Assembly: GCA_028283655.1 (NCBI GenBank)
Contig: JAPWKE010000003.1
Span: 2,232,001 to 2,296,000, forward strand
DNA from: Acidobacteriaceae bacterium
GTDB taxonomy: Bacteria; Acidobacteriota; Terriglobia; Terriglobales; Acidobacteriaceae
DNA length: 64,000 nucleotides
Direction: 5' to 3'
The notes under the pieces were generated by a model. The model saw nothing but the letters and a program-made list of their open reading frames with translations. It was not told where the DNA came from and did no database searches. Below, piece after piece: positions 55,105 to 59,093 of this stretch. Each line of letters opens with the position of its first letter. Positions within the stretch are counted from its first letter, which is position 1. The position numbers were made by a program, and so were the translations under genes.

Positions 55105-55854
55105 ATGCGTTCGGTCAGGGAGTACCATGCAGTCAGGAGCCTTTTTACCTTGCCACTTTCCCGCCGCGACTGTCTGACCTGCATTGCCCGCGGCCCGGAT
55201 TGCTTCTGCCATCTGCCCACCGAAGCTCTGCGCGATCTACAGACGCTTGGCCGCGTGGTCAGGCTTAGCCGTGGCCAGCAGTTGCTGCACGAAGGCGACC
55301 CTGCCGACCAGGTCTACATGGTCTGCGAAGGCCACCTGAAGCTCTACGCCTCCTCTCCTGACGGCAAAGTGCTGCTGCTACGCATGGCACAACCCGGCGA
55401 CGTACTCGGGCTGGCCTCTGCCCTGCGCAACACCCGGCAAAAGCTTACCGTCGAAGCGCTCGACCAGTGCGAAGTGAAGTCTGTACGCCGCAACGACTTT
55501 CTGCGCTTTGCCGAGCGATATCGCGAGGTCGGCCAGAACACAGCCACCGCCGCGGCGAAGGAGTACGAGACCGCGCTCGTCAGCGCACGACGACTGGCGC
55601 TCTCCGGCTCGGCAGCCGCAAAACTCGCGAGCCTGCTGGTCGAGCTTGCAGAGCTGAACCTCGGAGCCGAGAAGCAAAAGAGTGTGGAGATTCCCATGCC
55701 GCTCACGCACGAGGAGCTTGGCTCCATGTGCGGCATCTCTCGCGAGACGGTTACGCGAACCCTGACGAAGTTTGCAGCCGCAGGTCTCGTCGAACAGGCT
55801 GTCGGTCGCATCGTCGTAAAAGACCTCGCTGGTCTTGAAGCCGAATTCAACTAA
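55105..55854 (+). CDS. Crp/Fnr family regulator with four N-terminal cysteines
   Basis: A 249-residue cyclic-nucleotide-domain regulator. It shows an N-terminal Cys cluster (C23, C26, C33 and C35 in RRDCLTCIARGPDCFC), the sensor beta roll (RGQQLLHEGDPADQVYMVCEGHLKLYASSPDGKVLLLRM), a dimer helix, and a winged helix with recognition segment CGISRETVTRTLTKF. The SRETVTR helix resembles Crp (which has SRETVGR). The later Cys in LDQCEV aligns with Crp C92, not with the Fnr C122 ligand, so a classic [4Fe-4S] Fnr site is not complete; any cluster would use the four N-terminal cysteines. The next gene, coxA, is convergent. Confidence 0.9.
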   Translation: MRSVREYHAVRSLFTLPLSRRDCLTCIARGPDCFCHLPTEALRDLQTLGRVVRLSRGQQLLHEGDPADQVYMVCEGHLKLYASSPDGKVLLLRMAQPGDVLGLASALRNTRQKLTVEALDQCEVKSVRRNDFLRFAERYREVGQNTATAAAKEYETALVSARRLALSGSAAAKLASLLVELAELNLGAEKQKSVEIPMPLTHEELGSMCGISRETVTRTLTKFAAAGLVEQAVGRIVVKDLAGLEAEFN

Positions 55855-55913: not shown

Positions 55914-57572
55914 TTAGGAAGCAACGAAGCGAGGATCAGGCTGCGGGGCAACCTCGTAGTCATACGCTTCGTGCTCGATGATTGGAACCACGGCGAAGTT
56001 CTCTGTCGGCGGCGGCGAAGTGACCGTCCACTCCAGGCCATACGCTCCCCACGGATTGTTGCCAGCGATCGGCCCCCGGTAGTACGACCAGCCGAGATAG
56101 ATCATCGTCAGCAGATAGCCGCCCCCCATCACCGTTGCACCAGCGGTCGAGAACACATTCAGCGCCTGCCACTCCGGCGGATACATCGCATAGCGGCGCG
56201 GCATCCCCATGTAGCCCAGGATGAACTGCGGGCCGAAGGTGAAGAAGAAGCCGACGAAGATCGTCACCGCCGCGACCTTCGCGGGCAGTTCCGGATACAT
56301 ACGCCCGGTGATCTTGGGCCACCAAAAATGGAGCCCCCCGAGGTAACCCATGATCACCGAGCCGACCATCACGAAATGGAAGTGCGCCACCACGAAGTAC
56401 GTCTCAGTGAGGTGGACATCCATACCCAGCGAGCCAAGGAAGACGCCCGTGCAGCCACCGATCACAAACAGACCGAGGAAGCACATGGCATAAATCATTG
56501 GCGCGGTGAACGTGATGGAACCCTTATAAAGCGTTGCGGTCCAGTTAAAAACCTTGATCGCCGACGGCACGGCAACCAGCATCGTCAGCAACGAAAACAC
56601 TAGCGCCGAATACTGACTGACGCCCATGATGAACATGTGGTGCTCCCACACGAAGAAGCCGAACAAGCAGATGGCCACCGACGAGAACGCCACCGCGGTA
56701 TAGCCAAAGATCCGCTTGCGCGTGAAGCACGCAATGATCTCCGACATCACACCCATCGACGGCAGCAGCATCACGTACACCGCCGGGTGCGAGTAGAACC
56801 AGAAGAGATGCTGAAACAGCAGCGGATCGCCACCCATCTTCGGGTCGAAGATACCGATGCCGATCAGACGCTCAAGCGCCACCAGCACGATCGCAATCGC
56901 CACAACCGGCGTGCCCAGCACCATGATGATCGACGCCGAGTAATTCGCCCAGCAGAAGAGCGGCATCCGGAACCACGTCATACCCGGCGCGCGCATACGG
57001 TGGATCGTCACGATAAAGTTCAGGCCGGTAAAGATCGACGAGAAGCCAGCAACAAATGCCGCGAGGCCCGCAGAGATCACGTTCGTGTTGATGAACTTCG
57101 TGCTCAGCGGCGCGGTGAACGTCCAGCCCGTATCCACGCCGCCCATGATCACGGTGTACAGAAGGATCAAGCCAGCGGTGAGGAAGCAGTACCAACTCAG
57201 CAGGTTGATGCGCGGGAACGCAAGGTCTCGCGCGCCCAGCATCAGCGGTAGAAGGAAGTTACCCAGCACCGCAGGGACAGCAGGGATGAGCACGAAAAAG
57301 ATCATCACCACGCCATGCATGGTGAAGACCTTGTTGTACGTATCCATCGACATCAGGTCTGCGTTGGGAGTCAGCAGTTCCAGCCGAAGAAAGAACGCCA
57401 GCAGTCCGCCGACCACGAAGAAGAACGTGACGCCCATCAGGTAGAGCAACGCGATACGCTTGTGATCCTGCGTCAGAAGCCAGCTTTTGATGCCGCGCGA
57501 CGCGTTCAGATAATTATGTTCAGGCAGACGATCAAGAGGCTGTTGGACGGGGGCTATCGCAGCTGTACTCAC
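55914..57572 (-). CDS. coxA: Cytochrome c oxidase subunit I (A2-type heme-copper oxidase)
   Basis: A 552-residue, 12-helix catalytic subunit that reduces oxygen and pumps protons. The heme ligand His is in [10 protein letters not shown], the Cu-B/active-site region is [15 protein letters not shown] (His about 262), and [12 protein letters not shown] holds the final His pair. The sequence YSHPAV replaces the GHPEV of A1-type enzymes: it lacks the D-channel Glu, as in A2-type oxidases. The GTG start overlaps the stop of the upstream Cys-rich ORF by four bases. No subunit II or III gene is in the neighbourhood, so partners lie elsewhere. Confidence 0.95.
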
Positions 57573-57799
57573 AGAGACACACTCCTTGCATACGCACCGA
57601 AGGCAGGCAGCACCGCAGACGCCAGCGCCTGCATGGCCTGCTCAGCCACCGCGAGCACGATCATCGGCGGGCAGGCTTCCGACGTTCCATACCCGGGGCA
57701 AGGCGCGTCCTTCGGACACACCACAGCCTTGCGCAGAGCGTTGGGGCAGCCAGGGCAGGAGTTCTTGCAAGCGGACTTTTTCTGCAGGATGGTAAACAT
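57569..57799 (-). CDS. Cys-rich small protein, translationally coupled to coxA
   Basis: A 76-residue ORF that I do not recognise. Six cysteines at about positions 11, 15, 18, 28, 34 and 43 include a CxxxCxxC start and several CP pairs ([18 protein letters not shown]). The last 30 residues are hydrophobic ([26 protein letters not shown]), which could anchor it in the membrane. A GAGG site precedes the ATG at 57799. Its TGA overlaps the coxA GTG as GTGA, the usual sign of coupling. It could bind copper or an iron-sulfur cluster and act in oxidase maturation; this is inference. It is short, so coding status is not certain. Confidence 0.6.
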
Positions 57800-57848
57800 C
57801 GTTCTTTCCTCGATTGTTCTGAGGATCGCGCCGTTTGCATTCCTGCGC

Positions 57849-57864
57849 GGTGACGGCCATCACA
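57849..57864. promoter_or_regulatory. Candidate Crp-type site between the Cys-rich ORF and the M24 gene
   Basis: GGTGA-N6-TCACA, one base from the Crp consensus TGTGA-N6-TCACA, in the 118-base divergent gap. It would fit the Crp-like recognition helix of the regulator at 55105. Confidence 0.35.
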
Positions 57865-57917: not shown

Positions 57918-59093
57918 ATGGATTTGAATGCTCTGCAGGCTGCGCTCAGGGAACAGAAGCTCGATGGCTGGCTGTTCTACGATCACCACCACCGCGACCC
58001 CATCGCCTACCGCATCCTCGGGCTCGACGAAAAGAGCTTCGTCTCGCGGCGCTGGTTCTACTTCGTGCCGGCCTACGGCGAGCCGAAGAAGCTCGTCCAT
58101 CGCATCGAGTCGGGCAAGCTCGACGCGCTGCCCGGCATGAAGGAGCAGTACTCGTCCTGGCAGGAGCTTGAAGCGAAGCTTGCAGCCCTGCTTGGCGGCT
58201 CGCGTACCGTGGCGATGCAGTACTCGCCGCGCAACGCGATCATGTACGTCTCGATGGTCGACGCAGGCACGGTGGAACTCGTGCGCTCCTTCGGCAAGGA
58301 CGTGCGCTCCTCCGCCGACCTCGTCAGCATCTTCGAAGCTGTCCTCAGCGAAGAGCAGATCGCCACCCACTACGTTGCACAACAAAAGCTCGATAGCATC
58401 CTGCAGGCGACATGGAAGCACATCGGCACCGAGGTTCGTGCGGGCCGCGCTATCGGTGAGATGGACGTCGTAAACCTTCTGCTTGCAGGCATGGAGCGCG
58501 AAGGCCTCTGGACCGACCATGGTCCCAACTGCTCGGCAGGGCCTAACTCTGCAGACTCGCACTATGAGCCGACCGCTGAAAGCTCGCGACAGATCCAGCG
58601 CGGAGACTTCGTCCTCATCGACGTCTGGGCCAAGCTCGCCAGCGACCCGAAATCGGTCTGGTACGACATCACCTGGACCGGCGTCGTCGACCGTGAACCC
58701 ACCGAGCGCGAGCAGCTGATCTTCAGCACCGTGCGCGACGCGCGCGACGCCGCCATCAACGCCGTCGAGGCTGCGTACGCAGCAGGCACCGCCATCGCAG
58801 GCTGGCAGGCCGACGACGCGGCACGTAACGTCATCCGCAACGCTGGCTTCGGGGAGTGGTTCACGCATCGCACCGGCCACAACATCGCAGTGGAACTGCA
58901 CGGCAACGGAGCACACCTCGACAACCTGGAGACGCACGACGAGCGTCTGCTGCTGCCCAACACCTGCTTCTCCGTCGAGCCCGGCATCTACTTCCCCGGC
59001 GAGTTCGGCGTACGCAGCGAGGTGAACATGATGACGCGCCCCGGCAAAGCCGAAGTCACCGGCCCTCGCCAGACAGAACTCGTCCGCATCTGA
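57918..59093 (+). CDS. M24 family metallopeptidase (Xaa-Pro aminopeptidase-like)
   Basis: A 391-residue cytosolic peptidase that removes an N-terminal residue preceding proline. The creatinase-like N-terminal domain (LNALQAALREQKLDGWLFYDHHHRDPIAYRILGLDEKSF) precedes the pita-bread domain. The five metal ligands of M24 are in LIDVWAKL and YDITWTG (two Asp), FTHRTGHNIAVELHGNG (His), FSVEPGIYFPGEFGVRSEVNMM (two Glu). The ATG at 57918 gives the shortest intact domain; the open frame runs upstream without support. It is divergent from the coxA unit. Confidence 0.88.
   Translation: MDLNALQAALREQKLDGWLFYDHHHRDPIAYRILGLDEKSFVSRRWFYFVPAYGEPKKLVHRIESGKLDALPGMKEQYSSWQELEAKLAALLGGSRTVAMQYSPRNAIMYVSMVDAGTVELVRSFGKDVRSSADLVSIFEAVLSEEQIATHYVAQQKLDSILQATWKHIGTEVRAGRAIGEMDVVNLLLAGMEREGLWTDHGPNCSAGPNSADSHYEPTAESSRQIQRGDFVLIDVWAKLASDPKSVWYDITWTGVVDREPTEREQLIFSTVRDARDAAINAVEAAYAAGTAIAGWQADDAARNVIRNAGFGEWFTHRTGHNIAVELHGNGAHLDNLETHDERLLLPNTCFSVEPGIYFPGEFGVRSEVNMMTRPGKAEVTGPRQTELVRI

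Follow-up and report, generated by a model that had tools for sequence, protein, structure and literature searches.

A short, cysteine-rich ORF stands directly in front of a gene for cytochrome oxidase subunit I (coxA) in the 64,000-nucleotide stretch of Acidobacteriaceae DNA that was analysed here (the window), raising the question of whether it encodes a protein and, if so, whether this protein serves the oxidase whose gene it adjoins. A first-pass annotation had proposed a metal-handling maturation factor for that oxidase.

A conserved cysteine-rich mini-protein family

The ORF (57569..57799, minus strand) was identified as the gene of a mini-protein of 76 amino acids with six cysteines (positions 11, 15, 18, 28, 34 and 43), based on the ORF itself, its homologues and purifying selection. 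The first-pass annotation, which gave no strand, had been right that the 76-codon ORF is real and regarding its translation signals: the TGA stop codon (57571-57569) overlaps the GTG start codon of coxA (57572-57570) in the sequence GTGA, and a predicted ribosome-binding site, GAGGAAAG (57804..57811, minus strand), is situated 4 nt before the ATG. Upstream of the ORF and divergent to it, a gene for an M24 peptidase was identified by sequence (57918-59093). The protein had been described as unrecognised, and it has no Pfam or NCBIfam match at E<=1.

Conservation in related genomes, a check named by the first-pass annotation, was observed in a protein search of 61 genomes, with clear relatives at 82% (G024) and 63% (G008) identity and weaker ones elsewhere. 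A common motif was present in 17 of the 22 loci read (L017, L018, L022, L023 and L027 were set aside as it was absent; L020, L021, L024-L026 and L028-L030, all with E>=0.03, were left out of this reading). A profile search within the same bacterial family matched 34 of 250 genomes at E<=0.01 and 26 at E<=1e-5, the eight matches with E>1e-5 being uncounted (two of the eight were read, L095 and L096, and neither has the CPP core). With a larger profile, at least 48 of 298 genomes of the order were found to carry the gene, all in the one family Acidobacteriaceae and with one copy each, along with at least 14 of 396 genomes of the phylum, 12 of the 14 being Acidobacteriaceae; these searches scored the best 19 and the best 14 first-look candidates per genome, respectively, and relatives elsewhere may be missed. 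Named carriers (15 loci) include Terriglobus roseus DSM 18391, Granulicella, Edaphobacter and Silvibacterium bohemicum.

Alignment of 32 members (alignment A2, partly by eye) showed that they have in common C-x-G-Y-G-x4-C-P-P, with single departures, preceded by a cysteine 3 or 5 residues ahead of the C-x-G-Y-G core and followed by a LIVLA-like helix. All 32 possess at least four cysteines, and they span 50-93 amino acids. In the window protein this core reads C-x5-C-x-G-Y-G-x4-C-P-P-M-I-V (codons 28-48; 57656..57718, minus strand), as defined by alignment A2, hmmscan and hhalign. Two traits that had been highlighted in the window protein were found not to extend to the family. The pattern CxxxCxxC is present as C11-x3-C15-x2-C18, but by eye it is restricted to a longer subgroup, and the hydrophobic tail is borderline in the window protein (Kyte-Doolittle 19-residue mean 1.67), with only 12 of the 32 members reaching 1.6; transmembrane-like hydropathy is not a family trait. 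No obvious export signal was seen by eye. AlphaFold (14 rows) predicted a single helix at residues 46-61 and no further fold, with a mean pLDDT of 53.9, a low confidence that may be expected for a small protein folding round a metal or for a disordered one. Searching solved structures gave one match that was not meaningful (E 0.55).

Selection on the protein product, the other check that had been named, was evident from dN/dS values of 0.07-0.52 in 18 of 20 pairs, indicating purifying selection; in the remaining two, synonymous sites were saturated. The comparison between the window and G024 gave 0.07 near saturation (pS 0.70). A chance ORF was ruled out because of the conservation, the dN/dS values and the overlap with coxA. 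Searches of the main text of openly accessible papers brought up none on the ORF, and, judged by sequence, the mini-protein is small and conserved, has no family model and represents an undescribed family.

The core at codons 28-48 resembles the N-terminal Cys motif of DUF2284 (PF10050), a 'predicted metal-binding protein' for which no function was given in the accessible text of the literature mentioning it. DUF2284 carries C-x3-C-x2-Y-G-x4-C-P-P, and many of the mini-proteins have the same spacing in C-x3-C-x-G-Y-G-x4-C-P-P. By eye in alignment A2, the cysteine of this motif is located at -4 in 21 of the 32 members and at -6 only in the other 11, a group that includes the window protein with its C-x5-C in place of C-x3-C, while YG and CP(P) are nearly invariant. 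Using hmmscan against Pfam, DUF2284 was matched by 24 of the 32 members at E<=10 (best E 0.001, below the family cut-off), these being related rather than independent proteins whose matches rest on approximately 23 residues; the only other Pfam family among the 32 at this threshold was Somatomedin_B, with one match. The window protein scored 7.6 bits, short of the Pfam cut-off of 25 bits, and among five members scanned singly the best score was 19.3 bits, with one giving no match. A comparison of the two families with hhalign gave a probability of 89.5% over 23 columns. Conversely, when the family profile was run on 396 phylum genomes (best 14 candidates per genome), it matched two ORFs beyond Acidobacteriaceae, and both, of 186 and 184 residues, are DUF2284-like, one recognised by hmmscan (E 1.5e-43) and the other by pattern.

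DUF2284 differs in having a domain of 161 positions and a second Cys cluster (C126, C129, C132, C138) that is invariant among the seven proteins of alignment A6 and absent from the mini-proteins (19 DUF2284 loci were offered for A6, of which 8 fit the pattern and 7 were aligned, L209 being omitted for masked residues). Since this cluster is missing and scores fall below the cut-off, the mini-protein is described as working like the Cys module of DUF2284 and not as a member of that family, an assignment made from sequence likeness. A search of the window genome yielded no DUF2284 protein, and a DUF2284 protein had no match among solved structures. The earlier suggestion of copper or Fe-S handling survives in part: metal binding is plausible through the DUF2284 likeness, but there is no likeness to a copper chaperone, with Cox17, Sco, Cox11/CtaG and PCuAC domains detected neither in the window protein (E<=1) nor in the 32 members (E<=10). 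A ferredoxin, rubredoxin or known chaperone was ruled out for want of a match, and the DUF2946 domain (CruR/CutF) gave none either.

The orphan coxA and the loci that lack it

The coupled gene (coxA, also ctaD; 55914..57572, minus strand) encodes a subunit I isoform of type A2 of 552 amino acids, identified through PF00115 (E 1.2e-141), the gene copies of the genome, its clade and its ligand motifs. It has no adjoining subunit II and begins with a GTG inside the stop of the mini-protein ORF. Three COX1 and two COX2 genes were found in the window genome, with both COX2 genes adjoining the other COX1 copies. The window CoxA displays the COX1 domain, YSHPxVY and the HFH/HH ligand motifs of an A2-type caa3 subunit I, and its score against the NCBIfam model CtaD_CoxA is 645.8, below the model cut-off of 670.75. 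Orphan CoxA proteins are on average approximately 70% identical to the main A2-type CoxA. In a tree (rooted for drawing only), 19 of them formed one clade with 100/100 support, set against 17 main and three divergent copies. FYSHPAVY was present in all 36 aligned main and orphan sequences, the three divergent COX1 being omitted, and the HH and HFH motifs were inspected in four orphan CoxA and in main copies. The 4-nt overlap with the mini-protein ORF was observed at the start of all 19 aligned orphan coxA genes. Both the tree and this count are without L142 and L146, whose intact coxA surfaced only in the tblastn comparison of 42 loci described below; alignment A5 omits L146, as its start is unclear. 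Such an orphan CoxA (CoxA2) would be a subunit I isoform that borrows its other subunits from elsewhere.

Residue 374 of CoxA2 (window 55914-57572) was noted to be a cysteine in 19 of 19 orphan proteins and leucine or methionine in the 17 main copies, making it a candidate isoform-specific site by sequence.

Comparison with coxA was initially performed on 24 ORF loci and 20 other coxA regions and was repeated on 42 ORF loci using tblastn. The counts given here are taken from the latter because the neighbour tables favour the longest ORFs, so that antisense ORFs conceal certain coxA genes in them (L089, L137). An intact coxA was found in 21 of the 42 loci, fragments in two (residues 1-45 in L082; residues 1-38 and 480-540 in L085) and none in 19, among which L035 retains a degenerate 48-nt block that is 83% identical to the coxA 5' end; the contig downstream of the motif is short in two of these 19 (267 nt in L039 and 1,510 nt in L038). 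The ORF is thus retained in 21 of 42 loci without an intact coxA, which goes against the first-pass proposal of a maturation factor for the coupled CoxA. Since the ORF persists where the intact isoform is missing, a mini-protein dedicated to the coupled CoxA appears unlikely from these sequences. Neighbours in the coxA-less loci included hypF (L077), phosphoketolase (L037, and L036 by clustering) or an FNR-like regulator, and in L092 cydB is nearby together with a CydA-like gene, the latter recognised by eye.

A separate observation concerns eight coxA-less loci of the genus of the window (L034, L035, L038, L039, L041, L044, L045 and L046; for example L041:6896-7048, minus strand), in which a strongly conserved RNA-like element of approximately 150 nt with three hairpins follows the ORF, within approximately 0.5 kb downstream. 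RNAalifold gave a folding energy of -68.75 kcal/mol with weak covariation (two-sided changes in 6 of 53 pairs), and the last hairpin is terminator-like. Of 61 genomes, nine matched a covariance model of the element strongly (E<1e-35) and a tenth gave one weak match (E 0.0026), with none in the window genome; in the ninth genome (G010) the element is on the same contig and strand as a weak ORF match, approximately 60 nt from it. No Rfam match was found in 10 loci, with the element included. The string TTGATCTTCAAACC had raised the suspicion of a tRNA behind the ORF where coxA is missing; this was ruled out, as ARAGORN detected none in 17 loci, and the string is part of the conserved hairpin element. 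By sequence, the element is a candidate small RNA or 3'UTR element of a low-oxygen regulon.

The upstream palindrome, its candidate regulator and the putative regulon

Between the mini-protein ORF and the divergent M24 peptidase gene lies TGTGATGGCCGTCACC (57849..57864, minus strand), which matches the CRP/FNR-type palindrome TGTGA-N6-TCACA at 9 of 10 positions. The upstream palindrome is conserved across ORF loci whether or not coxA is present: matches of at least 9/10 within 300 nt upstream of the motif were identified in 43 of 45 distinct loci, 31 of them perfect, the exceptions being L033 (7) and L093 (8). In dinucleotide shuffles a score of 9 was reached in 1.0% and a score of 10 in none of 4,500. 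This count excludes loci without a match to the regular expression of the motif, for example L142, L145 and L146, which carry the palindrome by eye.

A gene for a CRP/FNR-family regulator (55105..55854, plus strand) is convergent with coxA. Its product possesses the N-terminal sequence CLTCIARGPDCFC, with C-x2-C-x8-C near the N-terminus, and the recognition helix SRETVTRTL, in which SRETVTR contains the RET pattern. FNR binds an Fe-S cluster by N-terminal cysteines, while in CRP the pattern RE..R reads TGTGA, and by analogy with these proteins the window regulator is likely to read the palindrome. E. coli CRP has the same consensus, TGTGA-N6-TCACA, and we therefore only infer oxygen as the signal. 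Of the 25 regulator ORFs in the neighbour table (cut mechanically), 18 contain C-x2-C-x8-C and 16 contain the RET helix pattern. A regulator similar to that of the window occurs somewhere in 30 of the 42 ORF loci. Regulator matches at E<=1e-25 were found in 207 of 250 genomes of the family, against 26 of 250 for the ORF, and a specific pairing between the ORF and the entire family of FNR-like regulators was ruled out, the regulator being far commoner.

Scanning the window genome with the relaxed pattern TGTGAN6TCAC gave 12 + 10 matches versus 7 + 3 for a reversed control (22 versus 10). Single sites in this genome may be chance occurrences, since the relaxed pattern exceeds the control by a factor of only about two. 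Of the 15 sites read among these 22, several are inside genes, and one is situated between divergent cydA and phosphoketolase genes. A further site, TGTGATAACCGTCAC (L154; G000:C3:725239), immediately precedes two small genes, named by eye as HMA-like and ccmE-like, and may place the maturation of cytochrome c under this switch as well.

The stricter pattern TGTGAYN4RTCACA was found at nine sites in G006, three in G015, seven in G001, two each in G239 and G082 and three in G179, with the control giving none in the first five genomes and one in G179. Of these 26 sites, all exact matches, twelve loci were read besides the ORF promoters. They adjoin a NiFe hydrogenase small subunit gene (L223) and, by eye, genes for a phosphoketolase (L226), a Usp-like protein (L225) and FNR-like regulators (L229, L238). 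Some of the strict sites mark places that are not oxygen-specific, namely a fumarase gene with a citrate-synthase-like gene (L231), a purB-like gene (L232), a permease gene (L237) and a position with no clear gene (L236). Two perfect palindromes 187 nt apart are located between the ORF and a divergent sucA-like gene in L224 (G015:C19:85018 and 85205); a sucA-like gene is the divergent neighbour of the ORF in several genomes and may be under the same control. As a side observation, six perfect palindromes lie within 26 kb in G006 (G006:C1:3599218-3625325).

G082 and G239 contain only two perfect sites each, namely that of the ORF promoter and a second palindrome (G082:C2:1166521 and G239:C1:4845551; L228, L233) before a multihaem cytochrome gene of an apparent ACIII-caa3 operon. 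The main coxA follows this cytochrome gene in the same orientation at a distance of 11-12 kb. The cytochrome is QrcA-like (80 bits, below cut-off) and is tentatively read as ActA of alternative complex III. The arrangement suggests one regulator for both oxidase loci in these genomes. Taken by their sequences and neighbours, the palindrome sites at the cydA/phosphoketolase, hydrogenase, FNR-like regulator and ACIII-caa3 promoters probably constitute a low-oxygen regulon, among which the mini-protein ORF is placed by its own upstream palindrome (9/10 in the window).

Possible roles of the mini-protein and comparison with known systems

T. roseus DSM 18391, which we take to be the same strain as KBS 63, carries the palindrome, the ORF (50 codons) and coxA (L141). 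According to the accessible text of Trojan et al. 2021 (PMC8407424), soil Acidobacteria use 'low-affinity' oxidases to respire O2 at nanomolar levels. In T. roseus, the single ctaD was up-regulated at nanomolar and no oxygen, and at 0.001 uM O2 it was up together with the ACIII-A2 caa3 operon; strain KBS 83 differed, its ACIII-A2 caa3 operon being lower at 0.001 uM O2 (PMC8407424). The main text of that paper does not contain the terms CRP, FNR, 'regulator', 'hypothetical' or 'small protein', and CRP and FNR are not mentioned in the accessible text of PMC11636273. Low-oxygen induction of the mini-protein would fit these published T. roseus data for the coupled ctaD.

The explanation that we consider rather probable is that the mini-protein is a low-oxygen-induced metal (Fe-S or Zn) helper of a respiratory switch that is broader than CoxA2. 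Low oxygen would activate the FNR-like regulator, which would bind TGTGA-N6-TCACA upstream of the ORF and turn the transcript on. The mini-protein would be translated first, with ribosomes passing into coxA2 through the stop-start overlap where this is present, and in half of the 42 loci the transcript would also carry the alternative subunit I CoxA2, which would take the place of the standard CoxA in the caa3 oxidase. Probably cytosolic, the mini-protein would bind an Fe-S cluster or Zn by four or more cysteines and act as a metal/redox helper for the maturation of the oxidase or of other metalloenzymes at low oxygen.

Ranked next is a general helper role at low O2, in which the mini-protein would assist caa3 oxidases of both kinds, the main ACIII-caa3 enzyme and the form with CoxA2. 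This is possible, if doubtful: the only perfect sites of G082 and G239 are those of the ORF promoter and upstream of the main coxA, and G082 keeps the ORF with only a remnant of coxA2, but the same palindrome marks hydrogenase, phosphoketolase and other genes, so that co-regulation alone is no pointer to the oxidase. Behind it comes a regulatory partner that senses redox state or metal via its Cys centre and modulates the adjoining FNR-like regulator in a feedback. That a similar regulator accompanies the ORF with or without coxA in most of the 42 loci speaks for such a partner, while the wide occurrence of these regulators in genomes of the family speaks against it, and the proposal is regarded as unlikely. 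Lower still stands an assembly factor that delivers copper to CoxA2 or otherwise matures it. It draws on the invariable overlap in the 19 aligned operons and on their single clade, and also on the single ORF copy in each of the 48 genomes (best 19 candidates per genome), which leaves the main coxA without a detectable copy of its own. Retention of the ORF in half of the 42 loci without an intact coxA, including those with the remnants in L082 and L085 and the degenerate piece in L035, weighs more heavily, as does the lack of likeness to any known copper chaperone in Pfam or NCBIfam, making this role improbable.

CruR/CutF (DUF2946) is a short, Cys-containing copper uORF before a metal-enzyme operon, an arrangement that is likewise encountered here. 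Cys-rich uORFs controlling translation are described in the accessible text of PMC9426467, PMC9973294 and PMC8456105, and the ORF, being small, Cys-rich and overlapping the next gene, could on that model control the translation of coxA by metal. This is the least probable of the readings weighed, as there is no sequence match between the mini-protein and CruR/CutF, no obvious export signal was seen by eye, the mini-protein persists without a coupled coxA, and the dN/dS values fit selection on the protein product.

A bolder version of the favoured metal helper would be a new class of low-oxygen mini-metalloproteins that retain just the N-terminal Cys module of DUF2284 and allow the ordinary low-affinity caa3 oxidase, main or CoxA2, to be built or kept active at nanomolar oxygen. 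We regard it as speculative and unlikely; if true, it could contribute to explaining the respiration of trace O2 by Acidobacteriaceae whose oxidases are of low affinity. The family also points to the Cys motif of DUF2284 as a free-standing module, and its putative small regulon and deletable gene are offered for testing how nanomolar-O2 respiration is sustained.

A parallel to a lone oxidase subunit comes from Pseudomonas aeruginosa, in which orphan CcoN proteins form isoforms of a complex encoded elsewhere; we know of no Cys-rich mini-protein in front of their genes. The cbb3 oxidases of P. aeruginosa belong to the C-type class, whereas the window coxA is of the A2 type. What is shared, according to the accessible text of PMC5697931, is that the catalytic subunit stands alone in a partial ('orphan') operon. 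The single (orphan) ctaD of Acidobacteriaceae, as presented in the accessible text of PMC8407424, is of the same type as the window coxA, namely an A2 subunit I that stands alone, with no subunit II of its own. This induced gene is now linked to a promoter element, to a mini-protein that had been overlooked (19 of 19 aligned operons) and to a regulator that is likely of the FNR type.
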